Source: an uncultured Bacteroides sp. (lineage in GTDB: Bacteria; Bacteroidota; Bacteroidia; Bacteroidales; Bacteroidaceae). Taken from it: a stretch of 64,000 bases of DNA. The translations under genes were made by a program, and so were the position numbers. The notes under the pieces were generated by a model. That model worked only from the letters and a program-made list of their open reading frames with translations. It made no database searches and was not told the DNA's origin. Where the stretch lies: positions 46,202 through 110,201 of the forward strand of contig CASELH010000001.1 of NCBI GenBank assembly GCA_949288715.1, written 5' to 3'. Positions 13,876 to 49,983 of this stretch are shown piece by piece; position 1 is the first letter of the stretch; every line of letters begins with the position of its first letter.

Positions 13876-13935
13876 CCTCGCAAAGGCGGTGCCTTCTCCT
13901 TGCAAAGGCGTTGCCTTGCCCAGGAAAAGGCAAAC
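13876..13935. repeat. 22-bp-period tandem array, locus 1
   Basis: Two 22-bp units start at 13876 (CCTCGCAAAGGCGGTGCC...) and 13898 (CCTTGCAAAGGCGTTGCC...), followed by a degenerate partial third. The array lies just upstream of the DUF3078 promoter. Related arrays occur near 28.0, 36.4, 44.0 and 49.9 kb. Confidence 0.8.
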
Positions 13936-13970
13936 TATGCGGCTTGGACGAAAAAGATGCAGGTAACAAT

Positions 13971-14001
13971 TTTGCAGCCTTACATATTTAATTTATTTTT
14001 G
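13971..14001 (+). promoter_or_regulatory. Promoter for the DUF3078 gene
   Basis: TTTG (13971-13974) and TATTTTTG (13994-14001) are spaced by 19 bp. Transcription would start about 20 bp before the ATG at 14029, supporting that start. Confidence 0.78.
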
Positions 14002-14028
14002 CAGGCGAAACATAAACATGGGGCTATT

Positions 14029-15654
14029 ATGAACATTTTGAAAACGGGAATGTGCCTGATGCTTGCCTTTTGCCTTGCCCGCCCTGCCGTGCAGGCGCAA
14101 GAGGTGACAGGCGGTGCGCTTGTGCCCGATACCTGCAGGCAGGACAGTGCTTTGATTACGGTGGAGGCAGTGGAGGCTGTGACCGACACGACGGCCGTGC
14201 CGGCAATGCCGGATTCGTTGGCTGCAAAGCCGGACACGCTGACCCTGCCAGACACACTTGCCCGGGCAACACAGGTGGCCAAGACCGACACTGTGCCCAG
14301 GAAAAAGAGCAAGGCCAAGCGGCGTCCCAAGCTCGACGATTTCTTTAAGGATTATTGGATATTGAAGTTACGCCCGACGGGGATGCATACCTTTGCCATG
14401 GATACGGTTTCGCTGCTGTATGAAAAATATATCGGTGTTCTGGACTACTTGAATGACCCCTCTACACCGGAGCGCTACATTGCTTGCAACCCCGATTATT
14501 ACCGCCTGTTCATGCCCTTGACCTATTATTATTCGCCGATAGAGAGGGTTTCGAAGATAGATTGGAAATTTCAACCTTTTGCCGCCTCCCCGGCTCTGGA
14601 CAAGAGCCTGCTGCCCATCGACACATTGGCCTTCACTGCGAAGGAGCGGATTAAAGAGCGGGTGGACCGTGCCCTGCTGGAGGCCTACGTCAACTATCCC
14701 CAATTGGTGGTGCGCACTGAAGACGAGATAAACAGTACCCCCATGTTCAAAGACGACATCAGGAGAGAGGCCTCTTCCAAAAAACGTTCGGTGATAAAAC
14801 TTTTCGCCTCCGACCCCGCAGAGCAGGTGCAAAGCGAGTCGAAGGGCATCGTTATCCGCAAGCCCAACTGGTGGACAACGGGCGGAAACGGCTCGTTGCA
14901 GTTCACGCAAAACCATTTTTCGGATAACTGGTATAAGGGCGGGCAAAGCACTCACTCCCTGCTGGCAGGCCTACAGCTGAAGGCCAACTACAACGACCGC
15001 GAGAAAATACAGTGGGAGAACTTGGTGGACGCCAAGCTGGGCTTCGTGTCATCGCCCTCGGACACTGTGCACAACTATCTGATAAACAACGACCAACTCC
15101 GACTTTACAGCAAGCTGGGCATACAGGCCATCTCCAAGTGGTACTACACCATCTCCACAGAAGTGAAGACACAGTTCTGCCCGGCCTACGATGCCAATAG
15201 CGAGGTGATGAAGGCCGCCTTCCTGGCTCCCCTCGACTGGTCGACAAGTCTTGGTATGGACTACAAGCTGTCCAAAACGAAGATAAACCTCTCTGTCTTC
15301 GTAGCGCCCTTGACCTACACCATGCGCTATGTGGGCAATGAGAACGTCAATGAGACGAGCTATGGTCTGGAAGAAGGCAAACGGGTGAAGCACGACTTCG
15401 GCTCGCAGGTGCAAACCAACTTGACGTGGACACCTACCTCTTTCGTGAAGCTGACTTCCCGCCTGGATTACCTCACCAGCTACAAATGGGTGCGTGTGGA
15501 GTGGGAGAATACCATCGACTTCCTGCTGAACCGTTACCTTTCCGCCAAGCTGTATGTGTACGGGCGGTTTGACGATGGCAACAAGCCCACCGTGGGCAAT
15601 AGCTATTTCCAGGTGAACGAGACGTTAGGCTTTGGCCTGAACTATGCCTGGTAG
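14029..15654 (+). CDS. Outer-membrane-type DUF3078 protein
   Basis: 541 residues starting MNILKTGMCLMLAFCLARP with a signal peptide ending VQAQ. A low-complexity Pro/Thr/Ala/Asp-rich stretch is followed by the DUF3078-like C-terminal region, recognisable by NHFSDNWYKGGQSTHSL, repeated amphipathic beta-strand segments, and a terminal aromatic-ended strand (GFGLNYAW), all consistent with a beta-barrel or outer-membrane-associated protein. Family assignment is from motif recall. Monocistronic between its promoter (13971-14001) and the rnf promoter. Upstream DNA is densely repetitive. Function unknown. Confidence 0.85.
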   Translation: MNILKTGMCLMLAFCLARPAVQAQEVTGGALVPDTCRQDSALITVEAVEAVTDTTAVPAMPDSLAAKPDTLTLPDTLARATQVAKTDTVPRKKSKAKRRPKLDDFFKDYWILKLRPTGMHTFAMDTVSLLYEKYIGVLDYLNDPSTPERYIACNPDYYRLFMPLTYYYSPIERVSKIDWKFQPFAASPALDKSLLPIDTLAFTAKERIKERVDRALLEAYVNYPQLVVRTEDEINSTPMFKDDIRREASSKKRSVIKLFASDPAEQVQSESKGIVIRKPNWWTTGGNGSLQFTQNHFSDNWYKGGQSTHSLLAGLQLKANYNDREKIQWENLVDAKLGFVSSPSDTVHNYLINNDQLRLYSKLGIQAISKWYYTISTEVKTQFCPAYDANSEVMKAAFLAPLDWSTSLGMDYKLSKTKINLSVFVAPLTYTMRYVGNENVNETSYGLEEGKRVKHDFGSQVQTNLTWTPTSFVKLTSRLDYLTSYKWVRVEWENTIDFLLNRYLSAKLYVYGRFDDGNKPTVGNSYFQVNETLGFGLNYAW

Positions 15655-15739
15655 CCCATTTTTCTGCCTTAAATAGGAAAAAGCATGCAGGTAGATGTAG
15701 AAAAATCTTCCGGATGACTTGTAGTTCATAAATTATGCT

Positions 15740-15747
15740 TAAATTTG
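15740..15747 (+). promoter_or_regulatory. -7 element for the rseC-rnf operon
   Basis: TAAATTTG matches TAnnTTTG, 27 bp before the rseC start. The -33 region has only a partial TTTG (CTTG). Confidence 0.55.
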
Positions 15748-15774
15748 CCGCGATTGTAATGTTCACTTTGCAAA

Positions 15775-16194
15775 ATGGCAAATACAATAAAACACTTAGG
15801 TATCGTGGAAAGCATCGAAGACCATCATATACAGGTGCGGATAGTGCAGACTTCGGCATGTGCCTCATGCAGCATCAAGGGGCACTGCACTTCGGCCGAC
15901 GTAAAAGAAAAGCTTATCGACATAGCCGCTGCCGACACTTCTTCCTACCGGCAGGGCGATCACGTATGGGTAGTTGGCTCTCTCTCTATGGGCGGAATGG
16001 CTGTATTGCTGGCCTTTATCATTCCCTTTTTCATCGTGGTGGTTTCACTATTCGTTTTCATGGCTTTATGGGGCAATGAGTTGTATGCAGCGCTTGGAGC
16101 GCTGGTGCTGCTTATACCATATTATTATATACTGAGGTTGAACGGCAGGTGGCTGGGAAGGAAATTCTCCTTCTCCATCCAACCCATGGAGTAG
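15775..16194 (+). CDS. rseC: RseC/MucC-family protein (SoxR-reducing system)
   Basis: 139-residue integral membrane protein. The N-terminal soluble part carries a cysteine cluster (SACASCSIKGHC, pattern CxxCxxxxxC) and a beta-rich region. Two transmembrane helices follow (about residues 74-95 and 102-118). In other bacteria RseC is encoded with Rnf and contributes to reduction of SoxR. Here it precedes rnfB by 73 bp and is probably the first gene of the rnf operon. Confidence 0.93.
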   Translation: MANTIKHLGIVESIEDHHIQVRIVQTSACASCSIKGHCTSADVKEKLIDIAAADTSSYRQGDHVWVVGSLSMGGMAVLLAFIIPFFIVVVSLFVFMALWGNELYAALGALVLLIPYYYILRLNGRWLGRKFSFSIQPME

Positions 16195-16267
16195 CCCCCG
16201 AGAGTATAGAGCCGGATGGCTGAGTAATTCTATCAAAAACAATAATAATCAATAACACATTAGTTTT

Positions 16268-17161
16268 ATGCATGTAATTCTGATAGCAGTAATCTCATTG
16301 GGAGTGATAGCGATAGTCCTTGCGGCTATCTTGTATGCGGCTTCCAAGAAGTTTTCTGTGTACGAAGATCCGCGTATCGGCCAGGTGGCGGCAGTTTTGC
16401 CACAGGCCAATTGCGGTGGGTGTGGATACCCGGGTTGCAGCGGCTTTGCCGACGCTTGCGTCAAGGCGGGCTCGCTGGAGGGTAAGCTCTGTCCAGTGGG
16501 AGGGCAGGCGGTCATGTCGAAGGTGGCAGACATCCTTGGCTTGTCCGTCGCTGCCTCCGAGCCTATGGTGGCGGTGGTGCGTTGCAATGGCACTTGCAGC
16601 AACCGTCCGCGTGTCAATCAGTATGACGGCGTCAAGAGTTGCGCCATAGCCTCTGCCCTTTATGGGGGAGAGACGGGTTGCAGCTACGGTTGCCTGGGAT
16701 GCGGCGATTGCGTAGCCGCCTGTAAGTTCGATGCCATACACATGAACCCGGACACAGGCCTTCCCGAAGTAGACGAAGCCAAGTGTACGGCTTGTGGCGC
16801 CTGTGCCAAGGCCTGCCCGAGGAACATCATTGAAATTCGTCCGCAGGGCAAGAAGTCGCGTCGTGTGTATGTACAGTGCGTCAACAAAGACAAGGGCGCG
16901 GCAGCCCGCAAGGCATGCGCGGCAGCCTGCATCGGTTGCGGCAAGTGCGTCAAGGTGTGCGCCTTCGAGGCGATTACGCTGGAGAACAACGTGGCTTACA
17001 TTGACCCGGCCAAGTGCAAATCGTGCCGCAAGTGCGAGGAAGCTTGTCCGCAGGGAGCCATCATTGCCCTCAACTTCCCCCCGCGCAAGCCGAAGGTTGA
17101 AGAGAGCGTCGCTCCTGCCAACGAGGCTCCCCAGCCGGCCGTAGTAGCAAATAAGGAATAG
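16268..17161 (+). CDS. rnfB: Rnf complex iron-sulfur subunit RnfB
   Basis: 297-residue subunit of the Na+/H+-translocating ferredoxin:NAD+ oxidoreductase. One N-terminal membrane anchor (about residues 3-25) is followed by a four-cysteine domain (CGGCGYPGCSGFADAC then CPVGG) and four ferredoxin-type CxxCxxCxxxC motifs (CLGCGDCVAAC, CTACGACAKAC, CIGCGKCVKVC, CKSCRKCEEAC). This is more than in the short E. coli-type RnfB and similar to the extended anaerobe type. It presumably receives electrons from reduced ferredoxin. An Ala/Pro-rich tail ends the protein. Confidence 0.96.
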   Translation: MHVILIAVISLGVIAIVLAAILYAASKKFSVYEDPRIGQVAAVLPQANCGGCGYPGCSGFADACVKAGSLEGKLCPVGGQAVMSKVADILGLSVAASEPMVAVVRCNGTCSNRPRVNQYDGVKSCAIASALYGGETGCSYGCLGCGDCVAACKFDAIHMNPDTGLPEVDEAKCTACGACAKACPRNIIEIRPQGKKSRRVYVQCVNKDKGAAARKACAAACIGCGKCVKVCAFEAITLENNVAYIDPAKCKSCRKCEEACPQGAIIALNFPPRKPKVEESVAPANEAPQPAVVANKE

Positions 17162-17191
17162 AATAGTAAACTTGTTAATGCAAAGAGATAT

Positions 17192-18529
17192 ATGTTGAAG
17201 ACATTTTCAATCGGTGGTGTCCATCCACACGAAAATAAACTTTCAGCACATCAGCCCATCATCAAGGCGGAAATCCCGGCCAAGGCGGTTATTTTGCTGG
17301 GGCAGCACATCGGTGCGCCTGCAAAGCCCGTGGTGGCCAAGGGAGACGTAGTGAAGGTAGGAACAAAGATTGCCGAACCGGGAGGCTTTGTATCTGCCGC
17401 CATCCACTCGTCCGTCAGTGGCAAAGTAGCTAAAATTGATACGGTGGTAGATGCCAGCGGATATCCGAAGCCCGCCATCTTCATCGATGTACAGGGCGAC
17501 GAATGGGAAGAGAGCATCGACCGGTCGGACACGCTGGTCAAAGAGTGCACGCTCACTCCGGAAGAGATTGTGAAGAAAATAGCCGATGCAGGCATTGTGG
17601 GACTTGGAGGCGCCTGCTTCCCTACACAAGTCAAGTTGTGTCCTCCGCCTGCGTTCAAGGCAGAGTGTGTCATTATCAATGCTGTGGAATGTGAACCCTA
17701 TCTGACAGCCGACCACCAGCTGATGCTGGAGCATGCTGAGGAAATCATGGTGGGAGTGACCATTTTGATGAAAGCCGTTAAGGTAAGTAAAGCATTCATT
17801 GGCATAGAGAACAACAAGCCTGACGCTATTCAACTGATGACGAAGGTTGCCTCGTCGTACAGCGGCATTGAGGTTGTTCCCCTGCAAGTGAAATATCCGC
17901 AAGGCGGCGAGAAACAACTGATTGACGCCATCATCCGCCGCCAAGTAGCAGCAGGCGCACTGCCTATCTCTACCGGTGCCGTGGTGCAGAACGTGGGCAC
18001 GGCTTTTGCCGTCTATCAAGCAGTGCAGAAGAACAAACCGCTGTTCGAGCGCGTGGTTACCGTTACCGGAAAGTCGTTGCAAAAGCCTTCCAACTTTCTG
18101 GTGCGCATAGGCACCCCCATGAAGCAGCTGATAGAAGCTTGTGGCGGTCTGCCCGAAGACACGGGCAAGATTATAGGTGGAGGCCCCATGATGGGCAAAG
18201 CCTTGGTGAGTGACGAGATACCCACGGTGAAAGGCACTTCCGGCATACTGATAATGAACGAGAAGGAAGCCCGCCGTACCGCTCCCCAGCCTTGTATCCG
18301 TTGCGCCAAGTGTGTGGCGGCTTGCCCTATGGGTTTGGAGCCATATCTGCTGGCTACGGTTTCTGCCCACGGAGACTTTGAGAGAGTTGAGAAAGAAGAC
18401 ATTATGTCGTGCATTGAATGCGGTTCATGCCAGTTTACCTGCCCCTCCAACCGTCCTATGCTGGACTACATCCGCTTGGGTAAGGCTAAAGTGGGAGCCA
18501 TGATACGCGCACGCCAAGCAAAAAAATAA
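17192..18529 (+). CDS. rnfC: Rnf complex subunit RnfC (NADH/FMN/FeS)
   Basis: 445 residues. The N-terminal region (FSIGGVHPHENK) precedes a Complex I 51-kDa-like domain with glycine-rich nucleotide/FMN-binding segments (IVGLGGACFPTQVKL, INAVECEPYLTADHQLM), a SLBB-like part, and two ferredoxin motifs (CIRCAKCVAACPMGLEP, CIECGSCQFTCPSNRPM). It is the NAD+/NADH-reacting subunit. Spaced 30 bp after rnfB and 9 bp before rnfD. Confidence 0.96.
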   Translation: MLKTFSIGGVHPHENKLSAHQPIIKAEIPAKAVILLGQHIGAPAKPVVAKGDVVKVGTKIAEPGGFVSAAIHSSVSGKVAKIDTVVDASGYPKPAIFIDVQGDEWEESIDRSDTLVKECTLTPEEIVKKIADAGIVGLGGACFPTQVKLCPPPAFKAECVIINAVECEPYLTADHQLMLEHAEEIMVGVTILMKAVKVSKAFIGIENNKPDAIQLMTKVASSYSGIEVVPLQVKYPQGGEKQLIDAIIRRQVAAGALPISTGAVVQNVGTAFAVYQAVQKNKPLFERVVTVTGKSLQKPSNFLVRIGTPMKQLIEACGGLPEDTGKIIGGGPMMGKALVSDEIPTVKGTSGILIMNEKEARRTAPQPCIRCAKCVAACPMGLEPYLLATVSAHGDFERVEKEDIMSCIECGSCQFTCPSNRPMLDYIRLGKAKVGAMIRARQAKK

Positions 18530-18538
18530 CATAGAAGT

Positions 18539-19534
18539 ATGGAAAATAAATTAACTGTGTCCCTGTCGCCCCACGTCCACGGCGGCGATAGTGTGAAAAA
18601 GAATATGTACGGCGTGCTCATTGCCCTCTTGCCGGCCTTTTTGGTGTCGCTGTATTTCTTCGGATTAGGTGCGTTGGTCGTCACGGCTACTTCCGTGTTG
18701 GCTTGCGTGTTCTTTGAGTGGGCTATTGGCAAATTCATCCTGAAGCGCGAAACGACTTCTATCACTGATGGGTCGGCCATCATTACTGGAGTGCTGTTGG
18801 CCTTCAACCTGCCGTCCAATTTGCCTGTGTGGATTATCATCATCGGCGCTCTGTTTGCCATAGGTGTAGCCAAGATGTCGTTTGGAGGGTTGGGTTGTAA
18901 TCCTTTCAACCCGGCACTGGCAGGGCGTGTGTTTCTGTTGCTCTCCTTCCCGGTGCAGATGACGAGCTGGCCTGCTGTTGGCCAACTGACGGCTTACACA
19001 GATGCCGTAACTACAGCTACTCCACTGGCTGTGATGAAAGGCGTGATTAACGGAGCACCAGGTTTCTCGCTGGACCAACTTCCGAGTTCGCTGGACTTGT
19101 TCTTGGGCAACAATCCCGGTTGTATAGGCGAAGTGAGCGCGCTGGCTTTGTTACTCGGCTTGGTCTACATGTTATGGAAGAAGATCATCACTTGGCACAT
19201 TCCGGTATCCATTCTTGTTACGGTGTTCGTTTTCGCGGGCATTATGCATTTGGTCAATCCGGAGTTGTATGTGTCGCCTTTGGTGCAATTGCTGTCAGGC
19301 GGCTTGCTGCTGGGTGCCGTGTTCATGGCTACAGATTATGTGACATCGCCTATGAGTCACCGGGGCATGCTGATTTATGGTGTGTGCATCGGTGCACTGA
19401 CGGTGGTTATCCGTCTCTTTGGTGCATATCCGGAGGGCATGTCGTTTGCCATCCTTATAATGAACGCGTTCACGCCGCTTATCAATACGTATGTCAAACC
19501 TAAACGCTTTGGGGAGGTGGCCAAGAAGAAATGA
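18539..19534 (+). CDS. rnfD: Rnf complex membrane subunit RnfD
   Basis: 331-residue polytopic membrane protein with about eight to nine hydrophobic helices. The segment DAVTTATPLAVMKG corresponds to the RnfD/NqrB covalent flavinylation site, where FMN is attached to threonine; SGAT is the common form and TTAT is seen here. Other conserved stretches: FGGLGCNPFNPALAGRVFLL and ATDYVTSPMSHRG. The stop overlaps the rnfG start by 4 bp (ATGA, 19531-19534). Confidence 0.95.
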   Translation: MENKLTVSLSPHVHGGDSVKKNMYGVLIALLPAFLVSLYFFGLGALVVTATSVLACVFFEWAIGKFILKRETTSITDGSAIITGVLLAFNLPSNLPVWIIIIGALFAIGVAKMSFGGLGCNPFNPALAGRVFLLLSFPVQMTSWPAVGQLTAYTDAVTTATPLAVMKGVINGAPGFSLDQLPSSLDLFLGNNPGCIGEVSALALLLGLVYMLWKKIITWHIPVSILVTVFVFAGIMHLVNPELYVSPLVQLLSGGLLLGAVFMATDYVTSPMSHRGMLIYGVCIGALTVVIRLFGAYPEGMSFAILIMNAFTPLINTYVKPKRFGEVAKKK

Positions 19535-28009: not shown

Positions 28010-28030
28010 CTCGCGCGGACGGGGCATGCC

Positions 28031-28119
28031 TATCTCTTGCAAAGTGGCGTTCTAACCCTTGCGAAGGAGCGTTTCAACCCTCGCGTGGTGGCGTTTCAAC
28101 CCTTGCAGGCGGGAGTTTG
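28031..28119. repeat. 22-bp-period tandem array, locus 2
   Basis: The core CTTGC/CTCGC recurs at 28036, 28058, 28080 and 28102, exactly 22 bp apart, within units such as GGCGTTTCAACCCTTGC. The array fills the gap upstream of the rfbC promoter. Of the 290 bp between genes here, only this array, the 14-bp word and two promoters are recognisable. Confidence 0.85.
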
Positions 28120-30060: not shown

Positions 30061-30147
30061 AGTGATTAGGGGTTAGTGATTAGTGATTAGCTGTTAGTGA
30101 TGAGTGATTAGTGCGCATTAATCACTTATCACTCATCCGCTAATCAC

Positions 30148-30150
<3 letters not shown>
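30061..30150. repeat. 7-nt-period array folded as an inverted repeat, between convergent ugd and helicase genes
   Basis: Seven tandem heptamers from 30061: AGTGATT, AGGGGTT, AGTGATT, AGTGATT, AGCTGTT, AGTGATG, AGTGATT. The right side read on the minus strand again shows AGTGATT-like units. Strong pairing: ATGAGTGAT with ATCACTCAT plus AGTG with CACT. It reaches the helicase stop codon, so it probably acts as a bidirectional transcript end. Confidence 0.82.
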
Positions 30151-31400: not shown

Positions 31401-31579
31401 GGCACACAGATGACACAGATGAGACAGATTTACACAGATTTTAAGGGCTTCGTCATGTATATCTGTCATTCTGAGCAACGCGAAGAATCTCCCCGAACAC
31501 ACTGGGAGATACTTTACTCCGTTCAGCATGACAAAAGAAATCTGTGGTCATCTCGTTAAATCTGTGTCATCTGTGTGCC
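31401..31579. repeat. Composite inverted-repeat element, copy 1
   Basis: The outermost 19 bp (31401-31419, GGCACACAGATGACACAGA) are perfectly inverted at 31561-31579. The outer arms are tandem 9-mers (ACACAGATG type). The inner core (31463-31532) begins CTGTCATTCTGAGC and ends in the imperfect reverse complement GTTCAGCATGAC. The same core layout occurs at 39331-39508. It lies between the divergent helicase and TlpA-like genes. No coding potential seen. Confidence 0.85.
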
Positions 31580-32456: not shown

Positions 32457-32541
32457 AAGAATGAAGAATGAAGAATCGCGCTCCGCGCAAAATGAAGAAT
32501 TTCCATGCGGCATCCTTGAGAATTCTTCATTCTTCGTTCTT
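32457..32541. repeat. 7-nt-period inverted repeat between convergent genes
   Basis: AAGAATG-type heptamers in the left arm (32457-32476) pair with 32522-32541 at 19 of 20 positions. An inner CGCG-rich mini-hairpin sits in the loop. The right arm touches the amylase stop codon. Probably a bidirectional terminator or mRNA 3' end structure. Confidence 0.82.
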
Positions 32542-34250
32542 CATTTCGGGGATTGCTTCCAACTTATTTTCAGTATCTTTACCCCGTAGCCGGGCACGGT
32601 GATGTCCGTGGCGCGGGCGGAGGTGAAGCTGATGGCCTCGTCGGCACCCGTCATGAGATCGGTGGCGGTGCAGGCTTCGAGCTGGGGCAGGCCGAGGCAG
32701 TCGAAGGCGTGCTGGGGCAGGTTGACGGCCACTGGGGCAGGTTGCGGGTCGAAGTTGGCCACGATGAGTAGGGCCTCCTTGCCGTAGTGGCGCAGGAAGG
32801 CGTATTGGCGGTGCTCGTTGAAGCGCCACCCGCCCACGTTGGCATAGGTGAGGTCGAAGAATTGCCCGTGCACAATGGCCGGCTCCTCATTGCAAAGGGT
32901 GAGGATGCGCCGGTAGGTGTCTTGCAGGTGCTGTTCGGTATCCGTCAGTAGCTTTCCGTCAAACTTTCCGCCATTCCGCCAGCGGCGCACTGTGTCTACA
33001 CACCAGTAGTCGAATATCGTAGTACGTCCGTCTCTGCCACTGAAGCCTTCGGCGTCCATCCCCCGCTCGCCAAACTCTTGTCCGAAGTACACCATCATTG
33101 GGTTAGTGTTCATGAGGGCGGATACGGCCAATGCGGGGATGGCTTTTGCGGGGTCGCCGGCAAAGAAGTCGGAGGCGATGCGCTGCTCGTCGTGATTCTC
33201 CAGGAAGTTCAGCATATTATGCTCAATGCCCGAAAGGCTTTGCCAGCAGCGGGTAATGGCTGTGGCCGACTCCTGACCGCAGATGATGGCACGCAGTGTG
33301 TCATACAGCCCCACCTTGTCATACAAGTAGTCGAACTTGCCCCGGAACAGGTAGTTGCGGTATTCGGCAGGATTGTACACCTCGGCAATGAACAACAGGC
33401 CGGGGTATTGTGCCTTGACTTGGGGTATTGCCCATTCCCAGAACTCCACGGGAACCATCTCTGCCATGTCGCACCGGAACCCATCGATGCCTTTCTCGGC
33501 CCAGAAGAGCAGGATGTCGCACATTTTATACCATGTGTCCGGCACCGGGTCGAAATGCCCGATGCCCCCGTTCAGGTAGTCCACGCCATAATTCAGCTTC
33601 ACCGTCTCATACCAGTCGTTCACCGTTGGGTAAGCGTCGAAGCGGTTGTTACCCGTGGCGCGGGCGGGCGATTCCCGGTAAGGCAAAGCGGCTGGGCCTT
33701 GCATGTCAAACTGCCCTTGCAATGCCTGGCCGGGGATGTAATAGAAATTGTTCTGCGGACTGAAAGCGAGGCCTATGTCGTCATCCTCCCCCAGCTGCTT
33801 GCCATGTCGTTGGGCATCGCTGTAGTATTGCCGCGCCACGTGGTTGGGCACGAAGTCGATGATGACGCCCAGGCCTGCACGGTGCGTGCGTTTCACCAGC
33901 AAGTCGAACTCCTTCATGCGCTCGGGCACGTCCCTGGCCAGGTCGGGGTCCACGTCGTAGTAGTCCTTAATGGCATAGGGCGAACCCGCGCGACCCTTCA
34001 CCACGGCAGGATGGTCGGGCCGGATGCCGTAGCGGCGGTAGTCGGTCTGGGTGGCATGCTCGATGATGCCGGTATACCAGACGTGGGTGGCTCCCAGTTG
34101 GTGTATCTCGTTCAAGGCCTTGCCCGTAAAGTCGGCCAGACGGCCGCAGCCGTTCTGTATGATGCTTCCACCCGGGATGCAGCTCTCATTTGTATTTCCA
34201 AACAGCCGGGTGAAGACTTGGTAGATGACGATTTTCTGGTTCTTCTCCAT
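32541..34250 (-). CDS. Alpha-amylase family (GH13) glycosidase
   Basis: 569 residues, no signal peptide, so cytoplasmic. GH13 conserved regions are present: I DFVPNHV, II GIDGFRCDMAE (nucleophile Asp), III LLFIAEVYNP (acid/base Glu) and IV FLENHDEQR (transition-state Asp). A C-terminal beta domain follows. It probably acts on alpha-1,4-glucan or maltodextrin; exact specificity is not readable. It is not beside a SusC/SusD pair here, so an internal glucan-trimming role is more likely than surface starch capture. The start at MEKNQKIVIYQVFTRLFGN is chosen, with a -7 element at 34272-34279. Confidence 0.93.
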   Translation of the reverse strand: MEKNQKIVIYQVFTRLFGNTNESCIPGGSIIQNGCGRLADFTGKALNEIHQLGATHVWYTGIIEHATQTDYRRYGIRPDHPAVVKGRAGSPYAIKDYYDVDPDLARDVPERMKEFDLLVKRTHRAGLGVIIDFVPNHVARQYYSDAQRHGKQLGEDDDIGLAFSPQNNFYYIPGQALQGQFDMQGPAALPYRESPARATGNNRFDAYPTVNDWYETVKLNYGVDYLNGGIGHFDPVPDTWYKMCDILLFWAEKGIDGFRCDMAEMVPVEFWEWAIPQVKAQYPGLLFIAEVYNPAEYRNYLFRGKFDYLYDKVGLYDTLRAIICGQESATAITRCWQSLSGIEHNMLNFLENHDEQRIASDFFAGDPAKAIPALAVSALMNTNPMMVYFGQEFGERGMDAEGFSGRDGRTTIFDYWCVDTVRRWRNGGKFDGKLLTDTEQHLQDTYRRILTLCNEEPAIVHGQFFDLTYANVGGWRFNEHRQYAFLRHYGKEALLIVANFDPQPAPVAVNLPQHAFDCLGLPQLEACTATDLMTGADEAISFTSARATDITVPGYGVKILKISWKQSPK

Positions 34251-34271
34251 ATTATATATGCTTTTTCGCAG

Positions 34272-34279
34272 CAAACATA
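34272..34279 (-). promoter_or_regulatory. -7 element for the amylase gene
   Basis: Minus-strand TATGTTTG, 21 bp before the ATG at 34250. Confidence 0.5.
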
Positions 34280-34323
34280 CAGAAAAACTTCTGAACAACC
34301 ATGTAATATCTGGGATTTTACGT

Positions 34324-34331
34324 TACCTTTG
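34324..34331 (+). promoter_or_regulatory. -7 element for the collagen-like lipoprotein gene
   Basis: TACCTTTG, about 33 bp before the first ATG (34364). This placement makes that ATG the expected start although it is out of frame with the main reading frame. Confidence 0.6.
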
Positions 34332-34363
34332 TGCGCGAATCATTAACTTTAATACATACGATT

Positions 34364-36273
34364 ATGAAACATCAACATTTGAGGGACAAAATTACCTCCC
34401 CCTATTAAGAAATATTAACTATTTAATCTTGCTAATCTCATCGGTATTTCTTTGCTCATCCGTTCTATTCACTGCATGTACCGATGACTATGACGACACC
34501 GCCTTGTGGGACACGGTGAACGACCACGAACAACGCCTCGCCGCCCTCGAGCAATGGCAAAGCGAGGTGAACCATAACCTCGAGGCACTGCAACAGCTTG
34601 TCAATACAACCGACTATATTACTTCCGTTACCCCGTACTTGGAGGGTGGGAAAGAGGTGGGCTACACCATCAGCTTCCTGCGCTCCGAGCCTATCGTCAT
34701 CTACCACGGCCAGAAAGGCGACAAGGGCGACCAAGGCGAGAAAGGTGATAAAGGCGAACAAGGCGAGCAGGGCATCCAGGGAGAAAAGGGCGATACGGGC
34801 GACGCAGGCTACACCCCGCAAATAGGCTTGACCCAAGGGGAGGACGGCAACTGGTACTGGACCTTGGACGGCCAGCCGATGACCGACCCGCAGGGCAGCC
34901 CCATCCGCGCCAACGGCGAGAAGGGAGAACAAGGCGACAAGGGTGAACAGGGCACACCGGGCACCTCCGCCCCCGTGCCGCAAATAGCCTTGGGCAGTAC
35001 CCTCGCCACCGGCACGGTGATGACGGACAATGGCGTAAAACAGTCGGCCGCCTGGTATCTCAGTGTGGATGGCGGCCGGACGTGGTATCGCATCAGTGGC
35101 GACAAAGGAGATAAGGGCGACACCGGGGCACAAGGCCCGCAGGGCCCGCAAGGAGAGCAAGGGGAACAAGGCCCGGCAGGCCCGACGGGACCGCAAGGAC
35201 CGGAGGGAGAACAAGGTCCGGCAGGCCAGGCAGGCGACTCCAAGTTCCTCAGCGTGGAACTCTCGGAAGACGGCACGCACTACATCTTCACCCTGGCCAA
35301 TGGGGGAGACCCCATAGAGGTGCCCGCCTACCGCGCCTTGCAGATAGGCCAACAGCCCATAGGTGGAGAGCCGGGTGACCCCATCTCCATGGTAGGGGAG
35401 AACATGGAAATCCCCATCACCCTCCCCACCGGCAATCCGGACGACTACTCCTCCATCCTGGCCCAACTCACCCCGGAGGGCGACGAGGGCACCCTGTCCT
35501 CCATAGCCACCACCCGCTCCGCCGGAGCATCCGGCTGGGGCGTGACAGCCGAGTTTACCGAGAGCGGCGCCAAAGTCACCGTCACCCGCCCCGCCAACAC
35601 CTATGTAAAGGCACAGCTCACCCTTACCCTCGTGGCCAAGGACGGCACCACCACCATAGCCTCCCGAACTATCCGGAGCGTCATGGCGGGCGACTACCTG
35701 CTTAGCGACGGCACCTTCACCCCCTCGCTGACGGACGACAACCGGACCCATGCCATCGGCATCGTCTTCGCCATGGGGCACAATACAGCCGACCAGTCCG
35801 ATTACAGCAGTACGGGCATCGGGCAGCAGAAGTGCCACGGCTACGTGGTGGCACTTAGCGATGCAAGCGGCGGCAGTAAATGGGGGCCAATGACTTGGTC
35901 ATCAGTTGGCAATACCGGCAGCGACTGGAACGGCTATAAGTACACGCAGAATATACAAGCACAAGCCAATTGGCAGTCCGATTATCCTGCCGCCGGGGCC
36001 GCTTGCAATTACAGCATAGCAGCAGCTCCCACAAACACCAGCGGTTGGTTCCTTCCTGCCCTCATGCAGCTGGCGGCTATATGCAGCGCAGAAAAAAGCA
36101 ATGGTGCATTGGACGGCAAAGATGCATATGCCAAACTGGGTTATAATATGTACTGGTCATCTTCCGAGTTCGCCAGCGACGGGAATTATGCATACATTAT
36201 TTATGATGGCAATAGAAGCATTAACTATCGTAAGGACATACCCAACCGTGTCCGTTCCATACTGGCTTTCTGA
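34364..36273 (+). CDS. Collagen-like repeat lipoprotein with C-terminal lectin-like domain; apparent frameshift near the start
   Basis: The first ATG (34364) reads only 14 codons (MKHQHLRDKITSPY) before TAA at 34406-34408. The long frame, shifted by one base, has no ATG after the promoter and opens directly into a lipoprotein signal (LRNINYLILLISSVFLCSSVLFTAC). One extra C in the C5 tract at 34398-34402, or a -1 ribosomal slip there, joins them into one normal signal peptide. The mature protein has an Asp-rich start (TDDYDD), a short coiled coil, three Gly-X-Y tracts of about 11, 6 and 16 triplets, a beta-rich middle, and a C-terminal domain ending MYWSSSEF...NRVRSILAF, like DUF1566/C-type-lectin-fold ends. 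Surface display is likely. Confidence 0.82.
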
Positions 36274-36421
36274 CCCCGGAGCAAGCATAAAACCGGGCTT
36301 CCCGCCCTGCGCCCGCACAAGAAGCAGGACGGACTGAGACTAATTAACCATAGTATTAACCCGCCTTTTTGTCAAGAAAAAGTGAATCACCAAGACCCCT
36401 TGTCCCAGGCGTTTTTCCCGC

Positions 36422-36533
36422 CGGGGACACACGACTTTCCCGTGGGGGACAAACGAGACCCTCGTGGGGGACAAATGAGACCCTCGTGGGGGACAAACGA
36501 GACCCTCGTCGGGGACAAACGACAATGCATTGT
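36422..36533. repeat. 22-bp-period tandem array, locus 3
   Basis: Units at 36422, 36444, 36466, 36488 and 36510. The three central ones (GGGGGACAAACGAGACCCTC...) are nearly identical and each contains the small palindrome ACGAG-ACC-CTCGT. The last holds ACAATGCATTGT, a perfect palindrome. It occupies the 320-bp gap before the HU-like gene; nothing else is evident in the gap apart from the ribosome binding site. Confidence 0.88.
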
Positions 36534-36585
36534 AGGACAAGTGGTTACAGCGACAATCTTTCAGACGGACGGAAAGGCACAAAAA

Positions 36586-36596: not shown

Positions 36597-37082
36597 ATGA
36601 TATTTTGGAAACGAGTCCAACAAGCAATCAACAAACTGTGGTACCCACGCAGCGTGACGGTGGGCAAGCCTGTGGAGACGCAGGAGCTGGCCCGCCGCAT
36701 TGCCCGCGAGAGCACCGTGTCGCCCGCCGATACGCATGCCGTGCTGCGCGCCCTCCCCGCCATCATGGCGGACTTCATGAAGGAGAGCCGCGCCGTGCAC
36801 TTCGAGGGACTGGGCTGGTTCCGCTACACCACCGTGTCCGCCGGTAAGGGCGTGCCCACGAAGGAGGAGGTGAGCAGCGACCAGATTACCGGCCTGCGCG
36901 TGCAGTTCACCCCCGACCGCACCCGCAACATGGACGGCGGCTACACCCGCGCGCTCATTGCCGACGAAGGCATAGGCTTTGCGGAGTGGCTGGGCAAGGA
37001 AAGCGACGAGACCACGCTTCCCGACGACGACGCCACCGGAGACGACGGTAGCGAGGACGACGGCGACCACCAGCTGGGATGA
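36597..37082 (+). CDS. HU-like DNA-binding protein with acidic tail
   Basis: 161 residues. Residues about 20-118 resemble the Bacteroidales HU-like family (ELARRIARESTVSPADTHAVLRALPAIMADFM, HFEGLGWFRYTTVSAGKG, VQFTPDRTRN), i.e. a HU/IHF fold beginning with a longer N-terminal extension. The C terminus is strongly acidic (PDDDATGDDGSEDDGDH). Related proteins are presumed nucleoid or surface-locus-associated DNA binders. The gene sits directly downstream of a 22-bp repeat array and has its own terminator, so it is a single-gene unit. Confidence 0.88.
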   Translation: MIFWKRVQQAINKLWYPRSVTVGKPVETQELARRIARESTVSPADTHAVLRALPAIMADFMKESRAVHFEGLGWFRYTTVSAGKGVPTKEEVSSDQITGLRVQFTPDRTRNMDGGYTRALIADEGIGFAEWLGKESDETTLPDDDATGDDGSEDDGDHQLG

Positions 37083-43950: not shown

Positions 43951-43990
43951 TTAAAAAGGGTGGAATCGGCCGATAGTTTGCAGCGAAATC

Positions 43991-44060
43991 TACCGTTTCA
44001 ACGCCCGCATGGTAGCGTTCCTACGCCAGCGGCATGGCGTTTCAACCCCACTAAGCCCGT
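43991..44060. repeat. 22-bp-period tandem array, locus 4
   Basis: GTTTC/GTTCC words at 43995, 44017 and 44039 are exactly 22 bp apart. The unit GGCGTTTCAACCC is shared with the locus near 28.1 kb. It lies in the 173-bp gap between aguA and aguB. Confidence 0.82.
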
Positions 44061-45260: not shown

Positions 45261-45268
45261 TATCTTTG
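45261..45268 (+). promoter_or_regulatory. -7 element for the nif3/zinc-ribbon pair
   Basis: TATCTTTG, 20 bp before the nif3 ATG, which supports the start at 45289. Confidence 0.6.
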
Positions 45269-45288
45269 CACAAAATTTCCCCGACATA

Positions 45289-46071
45289 ATGAAACTTAAG
45301 GAGATTGTGGACGCCCTTGAACAGTTCGCGCCTCTGCCCTTGCAAGACGGATTTGACAATGCCGGCCTGCAAGTAGGACTGACAGATGCGGAAGTTACAG
45401 GGGCTTTGTTGTGTCTTGACGTTACCGAGGCCGTGCTCGACGAAGCCATTGCCCTTGGATATAACTTGGTAATATCCCACCATCCGCTCATGTTCAAAGG
45501 CTGCAAGTCCATCACCGGCAAGGACTACGTGGAGCGATGCATCCTGAAAGCTATCAGAAACGGCATCGCCATCTACTCCGCCCACACCAATTTGGACAAC
45601 GTGCAAGGCGGGGTAAACTACAAGATGGCCGAGAAGATAGGCCTTACGGATGTCCGCATCCTCGAGCCCAAGGACGACTGCCCGCAAGCAGGCTCGGGCG
45701 CCATCGGCCGGCTGGCGTGCGCGGAAGATGAAGAAGCCTTCTTGAAGCGCATAAAGCACACCTTCGGCGTGGGCTGCCTGCGCCATAACCGTGGCTGCCA
45801 ACGCCAGATAAAGACCGTGGCTTTGTGTGGAGGAGCGGGCGCCTTTCTCATACCAAGCGCCATCCGGCAGAAGGCCGACGTGTTCATTACCGGAGAAATA
45901 AAATATCACGACTACTTCAATTACGACTCGCAAATCCTGCTGGCCGAGATAGGACACTATGAGAGCGAGCAATATACGAAAGAAATATTTTATCAACTAA
46001 TCAGGGAATCGTTTCCCGGCCTTGCCGTCGAGCAGACCCGGGTGAACACCAACCCCATAAACTATCTGTAA
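45289..46071 (+). CDS. Nif3-like dinuclear metal-centre protein
   Basis: 260 residues, the short form of the NIF3/YbgI/GCH-I type 2 group without the inserted CutA-like domain. Metal-ligand segments: VISHHPLMFKG, YSAHTNLDNVQGGVNYKMAE, TGEIKYHDYF and EIGHYESEQYTKEIF. The activity is uncertain; a hydrolase role has been suggested for the family. The next gene, 5 bp downstream, is a coiled-coil zinc-ribbon protein, a commonly conserved pair. Confidence 0.93.
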   Translation: MKLKEIVDALEQFAPLPLQDGFDNAGLQVGLTDAEVTGALLCLDVTEAVLDEAIALGYNLVISHHPLMFKGCKSITGKDYVERCILKAIRNGIAIYSAHTNLDNVQGGVNYKMAEKIGLTDVRILEPKDDCPQAGSGAIGRLACAEDEEAFLKRIKHTFGVGCLRHNRGCQRQIKTVALCGGAGAFLIPSAIRQKADVFITGEIKYHDYFNYDSQILLAEIGHYESEQYTKEIFYQLIRESFPGLAVEQTRVNTNPINYL

Positions 46072-46076
46072 AGAAT

Positions 46077-46907
46077 ATGGCTAAAGAAGCAAAGAAAAAT
46101 CCACAAGAACTGACCGTAGAGCAGAAGTTGAAGACCTTGTACCAGCTGCAAACCATGCTTTCCAAGATTGATGAAATCAAGACCTTGCGAGGCGAGCTGC
46201 CCCTGGAAGTGCAAGACCTGGAAGATGAAATAGCAGGCCTGACCACGCGCATTGAACGCATCAAGAGCGAAATTGCCGAACTCAAAACCTCCATTGCGGG
46301 CAAGAAGGTGGAAATAGAAACCGCCAAAGCGTCCGTGGCAAAATACAAAGAACAGCAAGACAACGTGCGCAACAACCGCGAATACGACTTCCTGAGCAAG
46401 GAAATAGAGTTCCAGACGCTGGAGATAGAGTTGTGCGAAAAGCGCATCCGTGAGTTTACCGAGCAGCAAGACGAAAAGACAAAAGAGTTGGAAAAGAGCA
46501 GCGCCCTGCTGGAAGAACGCCAGAAAGACCTCGAAGTGAAGAAGAACGAGCTGGACGAAATCATCTCGGAAACCAAGCAGGAAGAAGAAAAGCTGAGGGA
46601 CAAGGCCAAAGACCTCGAAACCAAAATAGAGCCGCGCCTGCTCCAGTCGTTCAAACGCATCCGCAAGAACTCGCGCAACGGGCTGGGCATCGTCTACGTG
46701 CAACGCGATGCATGCGGCGGCTGCTTCAACAAAATTCCGCCCCAACGCCAGCTGGACATCCGCTCGCGCAAGAAAGTCATCGTATGCGAATATTGCGGGC
46801 GCATCATGATAGACCCCGAATTGGCCGGAGTAGCTCCCGAGCCCAAGGCCGCAGCCCCCAAAGAAAAGCCTGCAAGAACACGCAGGAAACTGACCGAGAT
46901 GGATTGA
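46077..46907 (+). CDS. Coiled-coil protein with C4-type zinc ribbon
   Basis: 276 residues. Residues about 10-200 form a long antiparallel-type coiled coil (repeated Glu/Lys/Leu heptads). A C-terminal zinc ribbon follows with ACGGC and VCEYCGR giving four cysteines, then an Ala/Pro/Lys-rich tail. This is the DUF164/zf-RING_7 architecture. Related proteins are suspected nucleic-acid or trafficking factors; no activity is established here. Co-transcribed with nif3. Confidence 0.92.
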   Translation: MAKEAKKNPQELTVEQKLKTLYQLQTMLSKIDEIKTLRGELPLEVQDLEDEIAGLTTRIERIKSEIAELKTSIAGKKVEIETAKASVAKYKEQQDNVRNNREYDFLSKEIEFQTLEIELCEKRIREFTEQQDEKTKELEKSSALLEERQKDLEVKKNELDEIISETKQEEEKLRDKAKDLETKIEPRLLQSFKRIRKNSRNGLGIVYVQRDACGGCFNKIPPQRQLDIRSRKKVIVCEYCGRIMIDPELAGVAPEPKAAAPKEKPARTRRKLTEMD

Positions 46908-46932
46908 ACTTGATGTTCCTCCTCATCATACG

Positions 46933-46975
46933 AAAGGCGAGAGTGCACACCGACGGGCACTCCGCCTTTTATTTT
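46933..46975. terminator. Terminator between the zinc-ribbon and HsdR_N genes
   Basis: AAAGGCGAGAGTGC (46933-46946) pairs with GCACTCCGCCTTT (46957-46969) with one bulge, followed by TTATTTTT. It overlaps the stop codon of the convergent gene. Confidence 0.8.
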
Positions 46976-47424
46976 TGTAATGAACTATACTCCGGGATGT
47001 CGGTAAGAAACAGATAGCGGCCCCGTTCATAATCCATTTTGCAGCAATAGTGCTGCATCCCGTTGCTCACGATGAGGTAGTCCACCTTCATCACCATGTT
47101 ATAGCGCGTTATCTGGTCGAACACAGCCTGATTGACAGGCACATGGGGAGCTTTATACTCCATAATCATCCGCGCCGACAAGTCGCGCCCGTACAGCACG
47201 GTGTCGCAACGCTTCAAAGTGCCATTCAGGCGTATCTGCACCTCATTGGCCATAAGCGCAGACGGATACCTCTTATAGTCTATAAGGAAGTGTACAAAAT
47301 GCTGGCGCACCCATTCTTCGGGCGTCAAGGCCACATAACGACGCCGCAAGACATCGAAAATGAAGTTTTTTCCACCCCTTTCCGTAATTTTTGCATCAAA
47401 TGCGGGTAAGTTTAACGATAACAT
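46969..47424 (-). CDS. Orphan HsdR_N-type nuclease-fold domain protein
   Basis: 151 residues resembling the stand-alone type I restriction HsdR N-terminal domain (HSDR_N_2). PD-(D/E)xK-like residues: Asp in LKRCDTVLYGRD and Glu-x-Lys in MIMEYKAPH, with a conserved Gln in DQITRYNMVMKVDYLIVSNG. No helicase, HsdM or HsdS gene is near, so it is not a classical restriction subunit. It is divergent from holA, with its own -7 element at 47480-47487. Whether it cuts DNA is unknown. Confidence 0.85.
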   Translation of the reverse strand: MLSLNLPAFDAKITERGGKNFIFDVLRRRYVALTPEEWVRQHFVHFLIDYKRYPSALMANEVQIRLNGTLKRCDTVLYGRDLSARMIMEYKAPHVPVNQAVFDQITRYNMVMKVDYLIVSNGMQHYCCKMDYERGRYLFLTDIPEYSSLQK

Positions 47425-47427
47425 TGC

Positions 47428-47435
47428 TACATTTG
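47428..47435 (+). promoter_or_regulatory. Possible -7 element for holA
   Basis: TACATTTG, with a long leader of about 160 nt before the ATG. A nearer promoter may exist. Confidence 0.4.
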
Positions 47436-47479
47436 TAGATTAAACAACGGTTCACACCACTCTTTCTATCAACGGGAGG

Positions 47480-47487
47480 CAAAATTA
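47480..47487 (-). promoter_or_regulatory. -7 element for the HsdR_N gene
   Basis: Minus-strand TAATTTTG, 55 bp before the ATG at 47424. Confidence 0.5.
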
Positions 47488-47602
47488 CGCATTTCTTATG
47501 AGAAAGCAGGGTAAGGCCGTTGCAAATCGGCCCTCTTTTTAATGCATAAGCCATCTGCATAGAAAGAGGCATACAAAAAACAAGCAGCAGATTATAGATA
47601 TC

Positions 47603-48622
47603 ATGGCCAGGCAAGAAATGACTTGTGACGACATATTGAAAGAATTGCGTGCCAAGCAATATCGCCCCATCTATTACCTCATGGGGGAAGAATCCTATTA
47701 CATAGACGTGATAGCCGACTATATGGCCGACCATATATTGTCCGATTCGGAAAAAGAGTTCAACCTGACCGTCGTATATGGGGCAGACACAGACATCGTC
47801 TCCATCATCAATGCGGCCAAGCGCTACCCCATGATGGCCGAGCATCAAGTCATCATAGTCAAAGAGGCGCAAAACATCCGCAACATGGACGAGCTTTTCT
47901 ACTACCTGCAAAAGCCGCAACCCTCAACCATATTGGTAATCTGCCATAAGCACGGCGTCATCGACCGGCGGAAAAAGCTTGCCACAGAGATTGAAAAGAA
48001 AGGCATTCTTTTCGAATCCAAAAAAGTGAAAGAAAGCCAGCTTCCTGCCTTTATCGGCACCTATATGAAGCGGAAGGGCATAGACATGGAGCCTAAAGCA
48101 ACCGCTATGCTGGCCGATTTTGTAGGCACAGACCTCAGCCGCTTGAGTGGAGAGTTGGACAAGTTGACTTTAATTCTTCCAAAAAATCAGACACGTGTCA
48201 CCCCCGAATTGATAGAGCATAACATCGGAATCAGCAAAGATTATAACAACTTCGAACTTCGTAGCGCTCTTGTCGAGAAAGACGTCTTAAAGGCCAATAA
48301 GATAATAAAATATTTTGAAGAAAATCCGAAAACGAATCCCATACAGATGACTTTATCTTTACTTTTCGGTTTCTTCTCCAACCTCATGCTAGCATATTAT
48401 GCTCCCGAAAAAACAGAGCAAGGCATTGCCGCGTTCCTTGGCCTCAAGTCTCCTTGGCAATCCCGCGAATACATGATTGCCATGCGCCGTTATAGCGGAG
48501 TAAAGACTATGGAGATTATAGGTGAAATCAGGTATGCTGATGCCATGTCTAAGGGAGTGGGCAATTCGTCATTAAGCAACGCGGAAATCTTGAAAGAATT
48601 GATTTTTAAAATCCTGCATTGA
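47603..48622 (+). CDS. holA: DNA polymerase III delta subunit
   Basis: 339-residue clamp-loader delta subunit. Family features: an N-terminal AAA+-like domain without a functional Walker A (RPIYYLMGEESYYIDVIADYM), QVIIVKEAQNI, STILVICHKHGVIDRRKKL, then the C-terminal clamp-loader helices (FVGTDLSRLSGELDKL, ITP-like DKLTLILPKNQTRVTPELIEHNIGISKDYNNFEL). It opens the beta clamp within the loader. Single gene followed by a long AT-rich gap. Confidence 0.94.
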   Translation: MARQEMTCDDILKELRAKQYRPIYYLMGEESYYIDVIADYMADHILSDSEKEFNLTVVYGADTDIVSIINAAKRYPMMAEHQVIIVKEAQNIRNMDELFYYLQKPQPSTILVICHKHGVIDRRKKLATEIEKKGILFESKKVKESQLPAFIGTYMKRKGIDMEPKATAMLADFVGTDLSRLSGELDKLTLILPKNQTRVTPELIEHNIGISKDYNNFELRSALVEKDVLKANKIIKYFEENPKTNPIQMTLSLLFGFFSNLMLAYYAPEKTEQGIAAFLGLKSPWQSREYMIAMRRYSGVKTMEIIGEIRYADAMSKGVGNSSLSNAEILKELIFKILH

Positions 48623-49359
48623 GGCTAATTCCTGCCCAATCCTTCTATTTTCTCTAATTAAAGAGGAATCTCGCACCTGAAAATGAGCATAAACTCGCTT
48701 AGAATCAATAAGATATGATGAAATAAAGCCTTTTAGAATCGCATAAATATCATGTCGTGCCCAATTTATCCGGAAATAAGGGCAGGATTTAAGGATTCAC
48801 CATCTTTTTTATTCAGCTTCGCTTTTCAAATCCATTTTTACTTGTCTCACTTTTTCTATTCTGTAGTATATACAAAATCATAGGGGCGTTTCTGGCTTCC
48901 TTGCATTCACGTTATAAGTTATTAGCGTTTATAAGAGTAATCTTTATGAAAGTAATATTGTATGGTTGTATGCAAGCAAAAGTATTATTGTACATTGCTA
49001 AGTCTGGTTAAGATTGTTATGTTATAAATATGAATGTAATCCTTTTGAGTATACGGATGTATAATAATGCTATTTGCACTGCCATCAGATATATGTATCT
49101 CATATATATTCAATAACTTATAATCGGTTATTAAATAGTGGATTCATTTATATAGCCAATTGGCGGAAATATTCTTGTAAATTATACTAATTCAGCTATA
49201 AGTGAATGCGTAATAAGCAAATAATCATTATATTATGCCGATTTGTTTAACTGATATATTCTGTATAGTACCTACAAATTACAAAAATGATAATTACATC
49301 TATTATCTGTAGATTGGAGGTATATACAAATGTAATTATACAAATATAAGAGTATCATA
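48623..49359. other. AT-rich intergenic region without a recognised gene
   Basis: About 740 bp, markedly richer in A and T than flanking coding DNA, with no convincing open frame, tRNA or IS. Small features: a 9-bp inverted pair ATAATTACA (49290-49298) / TGTAATTAT (49331-49339) just upstream of the XRE promoter, possibly an operator. It may hold a small RNA or decayed DNA. Confidence 0.6.
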
Positions 49360-49390
49360 TTTGCTTTTGTTATTTTATTTATTACCTTTG
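49360..49390 (+). promoter_or_regulatory. Promoter for the XRE-type gene
   Basis: TTTG (49360-49363) and TACCTTTG (49383-49390), 19 bp apart, about 44 bp before the ATG. Confidence 0.75.
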
Positions 49391-49433
49391 TCATCTGAAA
49401 AAAGAGCGAATACAATTGTAATCTCTATATATT

Positions 49434-49916
49434 ATGGAAATCAAAGATCGTTTTAAGATGATTATGGAGCGTGAAAAGCTGACAGCTGGAGCATTTGCTG
49501 AAAGCATAGGCGTGGCTCAAGCCACCATCTCACACATCTTAGGCTCACGCAACAAGTATCCAAGCACGGACGTGATTCTGAAATTGCATCAGCGTTACAA
49601 TGATATTAACTTGGGATGGTTGCTTACAGGTGAAGGCAGCATGACTGCCGACCCGAATGAGAATGAAGATAAAGATGAAAATCCCATTTCGGACTATCCT
49701 TTATTTGCTGAGAATGCAAAAAATCCGGCCGATGATGCAGGCTTTGATAAAAATCGCAAGGAAATGAGCTTAGAACTGCCTCAAACGCCCGTTAAAGAGA
49801 TTGTGAAACAGGAAATTATCTATAAAGAAAGACCTCCGCGGAAAATCACGGAAATAAGAATCTTTTTCGATGATAACACCTATGAGACTTTTAAGCCGGA
49901 GCATATGACAAAGTAA
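49434..49916 (+). CDS. XRE-family helix-turn-helix protein
   Basis: 160 residues. N-terminal Cro/C1-type HTH (about residues 1-65: MEREKLTAGAFAESIGVAQATISHILGSRNKYPS). A short acidic linker leads to a C-terminal part ending KITEIRIFFDDNTYETFKP, not recognised by me. It may autoregulate through the inverted pair upstream. A 22-bp-period repeat array begins within its stop codon. Confidence 0.88.
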   Translation: MEIKDRFKMIMEREKLTAGAFAESIGVAQATISHILGSRNKYPSTDVILKLHQRYNDINLGWLLTGEGSMTADPNENEDKDENPISDYPLFAENAKNPADDAGFDKNRKEMSLELPQTPVKEIVKQEIIYKERPPRKITEIRIFFDDNTYETFKPEHMTK

Positions 49917-49983
49917 TACCTTGCTTCCGGCTTTGCAATACCTTGTCCTCGCCTTGGTAATACTTTGCCTCCTCCCGTAAGGC
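49915..49983. repeat. 22-bp-period tandem array, locus 5
   Basis: AATACCTTG/AATACTTTG words start at 49915, 49937 and 49959, exactly 22 bp apart. The array begins in the XRE gene stop codon and ends before the pyrK promoter. Confidence 0.82.

Follow-up and report, generated by a model that had tools for sequence, protein, structure and literature searches.

Why should a bacterial genome contain numerous non-coding repeats that are all exactly alike in length and yet have no sequence in common? The question is an open one in print, as the passages of PMC8161180 drawn on here make clear. It is raised by a 64-kb stretch of DNA from an uncultured Bacteroides species (contig CASELH010000001.1, hereafter the window), part of a 3.28-Mb genome in 103 contigs, in which five loci between genes carry short tandem arrays with a step of 22 base pairs (bp). 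In the supercoiled DNA of cells, two helical turns take up about 22 bp. The arrays are real and genome-wide, several unrelated unit families occur in one genome, and a site can keep the period although its sequence has diverged. Among the accounts that we tested, the best supported, as far as can be inferred, is one in which hairpins in the DNA itself shape the arrays.

Results

Arrays in the window and across the genome

An earlier note on this DNA had proposed arrays with an exact 22-bp step at five loci, and the step was confirmed throughout: lag 22 was the best lag at all five (lags from 10 to at most 39 were tried), with identities at the loci as first delimited of, in order, 0.71, 0.72, 0.79, 0.56 and 0.57, compared with 0.25-0.27 in letter shuffles of each locus, none of 2000 of which came up to the observed identity at any locus. 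Arrays were scored as lag clusters at 24, 26 or 28 matches in 40. With 24 and 26 of 40, lag 22 gave exactly five clusters in the 64 kb, all of them the named loci; lag 21 gave three and one, lag 23 none, and over the other lags between 13 and 59 the mean was 0.21 and 0.07 clusters where the lag is no multiple of three and 2.62 and 0.77 where it is. Just three of the five arrays pass the stricter 28 of 40, so those at 43991 and 49915 are the weak ones. Tandem Repeats Finder reported period 22 at 13.88, 28.04, 36.44 and 49.91 kb, plus neighbouring 13.81 and 36.41 kb, and the 43.99-kb array is absent from its list for the window.

The genome was sampled over 822,212 bp, about a quarter of its length, as the window and 39 further stretches; clusters were counted at 28 of 40 matches, and gene context came from our own codon-based gene caller, by which 82% of the sample is coding. 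Lag 22 gave 43 clusters; its neighbours 21 and 23 gave 3 and 12, lags 11, 44 and 66 gave 20, 22 and 7, and lag 33 a single one. First-order Markov sequence for the first 424 kb gave no lag-22 cluster at all. The extrapolation from five loci to a genome-wide element is thus borne out, and the opposite outcome, a genome with no general enrichment at lag 22, is not what this quarter of it gave. The proposed non-coding position also stands: all five window loci are intergenic and 41 of the 43 sampled arrays lie between called genes, with one at a stretch edge and one inside a called open reading frame (ORF). Of the gaps of at least 60 bp, 252 are codirectional and 24 of these hold an array; the figures for divergent gaps are 12 of 70 and for convergent gaps 5 of 41, so that no gene arrangement is strongly preferred; a role as terminator was rejected, convergent gaps not being favoured.

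Unrelated unit families

The earlier note had also taken the arrays for one sequence family with shared cores. The single family did not hold up: compared at a minimum of 16 of 22 matches, the consensus units of the 43 arrays split into 19 clusters (one of 15, three of 3, four of 2 and 11 singletons), and the largest cluster holds 15 of the 43, no motif search for very short common words having been made. At the same threshold 44 unit pairs were observed, compared with 0.3 for permuted units. The shared cores survive in part, since the 28.03-kb unit pairs with that of array L182:2632 and the 36.4-kb unit belongs to a three-member cluster; the 13.87-kb unit is a singleton, and the weak arrays at 43.99 and 49.9 kb lie outside the 43 that were clustered. 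The 36.4-kb array has copies in its own genome on contigs C24 (98%) and C20 (87%). When 3-kb loci are compared, the C24 copy, which is turned, is similar within the array alone (90 bp at 96%, with a second match offset by one unit), and the C20 copy also has some flank in common, up to a similar gene start.

Purine-rich 22-bp arrays of the GGTAAGGAGCGG type were observed at L015 13159-13231, L178 9067-9130 and L010 14732-14801; the first two stand at different places and agree in every letter for most of their extent.

Arrays in relatives and at orthologous sites

Forty relatives were drawn, 24 of them in the same genus; the aguA protein of the window has its best named matches in Bacteroides, and by aguA the closest of those drawn is G016 (86%). 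Over 1,030,601 bp, about a third of its genome, G016 has 56 lag-22 clusters, with 12 and 15 at lags 21 and 23, and the other Bacteroides samples have fewer arrays, at 21-23 bp. Five more genomes of the genus, in samples of 62-100 kb, hold 0-3 lag-22 clusters each. In 80 named loci around relatives of aguA (1.39 Mb), 27 clusters have lag 22, 16 lag 21 and 9 lag 23, and none of the remaining lags between 15 and 33 exceeds 6, in a tally where one array can score at two neighbouring lags. The near-identical array that L047 and L049 share is counted for both in this tally and in the dyad-symmetry and flip counts below; L023, apparently contig C5 of G016, is included in this tally and in the dyad and fold counts and excluded from the relatives in the flip counts. 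Outside the genus, 162 kb from three genomes gave one lag-23 array in G026 and none in G032 and G039, and, at the named loci beyond Bacteroides, three Barnesiella loci are without arrays and L052 (titled Prevotellaceae) has lag-22 and lag-23 clusters. One array of the 15-member group, L180:15155, accounts for 27 of the 46 rows of hits that its 20-kb stretch has in G016, spread over some 25 places by hand count. The array between aguA and aguB is present in L023 and absent from 31 other relatives (32 of the 80 loci were inspected), where the gaps are mostly short; the type is thus widespread in the genus, although an individual array can be young.

For the orthologous comparison with G016 we sent 45 arrays, of which 28 lacked an anchor in the third of that genome that was sampled, one had its anchors apart, one was too long and 15 were compared. 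At 13 of these 15 intervals a period-21/22 array is found in both species, and at the other two no array was detected in G016. Nine arrays have no indel at all, at 74-96% identity; window:49906 differs by a 21-bp insertion and a 3-base edge gap, and L005:9344 by a 40-base gap within the array (interval 142 vs 65 bp). A period-22 signal with unlike sequence is present in both species at two sites, window:28030 (identity 0.42, at near-equal lengths of 118 and 120 bp) and L185:19332 (identity 0.57). The window array at 43989..44052 shows zero indels and two paired changes at dyads. Substitutions accumulate in arrays as in other intergenic DNA (0.145 vs 0.143 per bp at identity of at least 0.6; 0.171 in a control set matched at 0.6-0.97), 53 of 254 control intervals having been aligned. 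Ten arrays (894 aligned bp) contain two gap openings and 36 matched control intervals contain 19, a depletion (p = 0.09) that is suggestive and not significant, and that we do not accept as proof of selection on the register. In the set used for concerted evolution (six orthologous pairs, minus the misaligned L185:16069 and window:43989), only L187:2609 has a within-species unit identity (0.71 and 0.64) above that between species (0.57).

Dyad symmetry and flipped cores

Dyad symmetry was judged against 100 permutations in which all columns of a unit were permuted alike, with p ≤ 0.05 taken as significant. A significant axis was found in 17 of the 43 arrays of this genome, in 29 of 56 arrays of relatives and in 3 of 22 control arrays of other lags. 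Between this genome and G016, on ten arrays with identity of at least 0.6 and at most five gapped bases, we counted 8 paired dyad changes where 3.1 ± 1.6 were expected, a number reached by 7 of 1000 shuffles, and 31 broken pairs where 47.5 were expected.

Some cores also occur in reversed orientation within the register. With axes chosen on the arms alone, and a flip defined as an exact reverse complement that differs directly at three or more positions, flipped cores were found in 14 of 824 unit pairs (7 arrays), and none in the reverse, complement and two recoded controls; about the half-unit axis the count was 13 of 906, again with 0 in controls. Allowing one mismatch raised the flips to 26 of 824 on the axis, compared with 17 of 9454 off it, and the controls to 5 (reverse), 2 (complement) and 0 (recoded). 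One example is TAGTAT / ATACTA in L017:11175, which turns up again in the G016 counterpart as the same inherited flip, and a flip between species occurs at L018:16026, where TTCCAA is TTGGAA in G016. Such flips are the expected trace of hairpins or cruciforms in DNA.

Discussion

A proposed process acting on the DNA

We infer that the arrays are maintained at the DNA level, and our best reading, which we put forward tentatively, is a process of hairpin template switching and conversion that keeps a register of two helical turns. What it would act on are intergenic runs of some 3-8 head-to-tail units of 22 bp (21-23 bp in relatives), about two helical turns each, many with a dyad-symmetric core. 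Single-stranded units would fold into hairpins or small cruciforms; template switching within and between units could mend imperfect palindromes, flip cores and copy units, and conversion between arrays could carry a unit type to others. If exchange is most efficient with both units on the same face of the helix, the register would for that reason persist while the letters turn over, and since 22 is not a multiple of three the arrays would be purged from genes. Such an account would require no specific cellular function. It is favoured by the C24 copy, which matches in the array and not in its flanks, by the dyad symmetry, the in-register flips, the paired changes between species, the ordinary substitution rate and the lack of a strong gap preference, and by the combination of same site, same period and different sequence at window:28030 and L185:19332.

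Several observations weigh against this DNA-level process. The 26 of 43 arrays in this genome that are without significant dyad symmetry mean that hairpins are not the whole story; paired changes at dyads within arrays are not in excess (8 vs 10.5 ± 2.6 expected), and the 8 between species stem from two arrays alone (6 and 2). The flips are not all independent, given that L017:11175 shares one with its G016 counterpart and that L047 and L049 are near-identical, and inverted whole units could supply part of the signal. Unit number hardly changes between species, as the nine indel-free arrays show, which is less turnover than unit copying suggests, and indels are if anything fewer than in other intergenic DNA, short of significance. 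Dyad mismatches on the sense strands of codirectional arrays number 45 for C-C and 18 for G-G, a bias not expected of a DNA process that treats both strands alike. Lastly, the process does not account for a physical ruler that sets 22 bp. A much broader proposition, which we think unlikely as it stands, is that a DNA-hairpin process indifferent to sequence, guided by a ruler of two helical turns, writes and rewrites 22-bp units at fixed sites between Bacteroides genes, keeping the period while letters or even unit family are replaced, and that constant-length repeats in other bacteria may owe their length to this ruler.

Alternative explanations

Possible, if doubtful, is a phased protein lattice, in which a nucleoid or DNA-bending protein would polymerise along the DNA two turns at a time and recognise shape or short degenerate features instead of sequence, with the arrays under selection. 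This would explain a constant step with variable sequence, a period that outlives its sequence at 2 of the 15 compared sites and the scarcity of gap openings, and the same proposal is found in the passages of Subirana and Messeguer (PMC8161180) considered here. However, the indel depletion falls short of significance, arrays are gained and lost between species, as between aguA and aguB, and the units of one genome fall into unrelated families (eight clusters of at least two members and the 11 singletons); a sequence-indifferent binder alone, moreover, would not make units similar.

We consider it improbable that the arrays are transcribed chains of RNA hairpins in 3' regions, serving stability, termination or as a sponge. 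The upstream stop is closer than the downstream start in 18 of the 24 codirectional arrays, but this lean to stop codons may just reflect promoter space, and 12 arrays lie in divergent gaps. The C-C over G-G bias on the sense strand would also suit an RNA; yet G-U pairs, at 32 versus 35 for A-C on the sense strands of codirectional arrays, are not in excess, and the 16 G-U and 12 A-C mismatches of the more symmetric arrays on that strand are not counted as an excess either. L011:5689 (z -5.6) and L017:5610 (z -6.7) fold far better than their column-permuted versions, but window:28030, window:36406 and L005:9344 are among several that fold no better. The mean fold z, which is biased down by taking the better of two strands, is -1.8 over 22 arrays of this genome and -3.1 with relatives added (74 arrays listed, those above 200 bp left out). 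Covariation within arrays is absent, as given above, and an Rfam scan at gathering score of four loci (124 kb) gave four matches, none of them over an array. Neither a single RNA family nor a hairpin RNA fits this mixture, and the structural-RNA reading offered in the earlier note is not supported here.

Two paralogous FopS small RNAs (RF04319) were observed at L180 5250-5322 and L184 11398-11470, and the L180 stretch with FopS takes 7 of 46 hit rows in G016 (hand count).

Scarcely better placed, and to our minds a shade less probable than an RNA, is ordinary replication slippage, that is, variable-number tandem repeat behaviour with a chance preference for 22. Imperfect tandem repeats in non-coding DNA are what it would leave, and the 21-bp unit difference at window:49906 and the 40-base gap at L005:9344 are changes of the kind expected between species. 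Against it, other non-coding lags are rare (1 cluster at lag 33 and 43 at lag 22), most compared arrays show no indel, and the same sharp 22-bp peak is already seen in unrelated unit families.

REP/BIME palindromes with RAYT transposases are small, intergenic and dispersed. The arrays resemble them in being small, dispersed, intergenic palindromic units, and differ in their head-to-tail 22-bp register and lack of a common sequence. A spread of REP-like palindromes by an IS200/RAYT-type Y1 transposase is very improbable, as PF01797 (Y1, IS200-like transposase), present in 19 of 41 genomes searched, has 0 matches in this genome, G016, G003 and G021, all of which bear arrays. After aguA in L046 (Bacteroides timonensis) there is a seeming reading frame, preceded by small hairpins, that we take to resemble an IS200-type (RAYT-like) protein. 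A CRISPR array was rejected on the grounds that units abut head to tail at period 22 with no unique spacers, cas genes not having been searched, and an iteron origin is unlikely because the arrays are dispersed chromosome-wide.

Relation to known repeats

Subirana and Messeguer, in J Bacteriol in 2020, reportedly gave '22/44 or 52 nt' as a main type of repeat. The passages of their PMC8161180 used here describe Bacillus tandem repeats of constant length (20-21 or 52 nucleotides, nt) and variable sequence, their function unknown, mention repeats of 20-23 nt in many bacterial groups, draw attention to the two helical turns, and suggest a part for nucleoid proteins or small RNAs. According to the same passages, short sequences and their reverse often lie within one 52-nt repeat, a short sequence is common to the repeats of a species in many species without being a requirement, and the search was set to four repeats or more per array. 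The Bacteroides arrays fit this known kind of constant-length, variable-sequence repeat. As far as those passages go, both have a unit of constant length near two helical turns, arrays that differ in sequence, a non-coding position and several families per genome; here too one length dominates the genome, by the lag counts given above, and the dyad symmetry in Bacteroides resembles the sequence plus reverse of the 52-nt repeats. The differences from what is described there are the genus and length (Bacteroides and 22 nt; Bacillus and 20-21 nt), the shorter arrays (24 of the 43 span at least 88 bp and the remainder less, where four repeats were required in Bacillus), and the dyad symmetry and in-register flipped cores measured here together with same-site arrays of replaced sequence. 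The abstract and Bacteria section of PMC6749651 describe non-coding satellites dispersed in the Leptospira genome, alike in these two respects and different in that the repeats are long, and do not name Bacteroides; the passages of PMC5771137 on P. gingivalis make no mention of such arrays. Our literature searches, which left most subscription journals uncovered, gave no work recognised by its title or the start of its abstract as dealing with 22-bp Bacteroides arrays.

The Bacteroides case adds handles on the question, namely orthologous arrays that keep their register but not their sequence, units with mirror symmetry, and flipped cores, in which DNA hairpins would leave their trace. Should the process be mutational, the arrays are a source of variation between genes; if instead a protein lattice holds true, they would amount to a chromosome-organising code based on spacing.

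Features of the window

Table 1. Repeat arrays of the window, with their gene context.
Feature	Coordinates	Strand	Context
22-bp array, ~2.9 units	13869..13931	.	divergent gap; AAGGC-GNT-GCCTT dyads; no lag-21 to -23 array detected in G016 interval
22-bp array, ~4 units, GGCGTTTCAACCC core	28030..28119	.	divergent gap by own gene caller
22-bp array, ~6 units, GGGGGACAAACGAGACCCTCGT	36406..36541	.	codirectional gap; two near copies elsewhere in genome (98%, 87%); upstream of HU-HIG gene
22-bp array, ~2.9 units	43989..44052	.	between aguA and aguB ORFs
22-bp array, ~3.3 units	49906..49977	.	starts at stop codon of helix-turn-helix ORF; 21-bp insertion in G016
11/22-bp-period array, CTCATTCGTAC	13805..13857	.	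adjoins 13.87-kb array; dispersed family

The 36.4-kb array is flanked by a gene for a collagen-like protein (34225-36273; Pfam Collagen, DUF4988) just upstream and by that for the HU-HIG DNA-binding protein (36597-37082) directly downstream; the gene start that follows the C20 array copy (L003) is similar to the latter. By hand count, the 11/22-bp-period array takes 19 of 49 hit rows in G016. Tandem repeats of 7 or 9 bp stand at or near gene ends at 30061-30150, 31404-31576 and 32457-32545, the halves of each spot being roughly reverse complementary, like long heptad or nonamer hairpins, and the first of the three receives 18 of 49 hit rows in G016, also by hand count.

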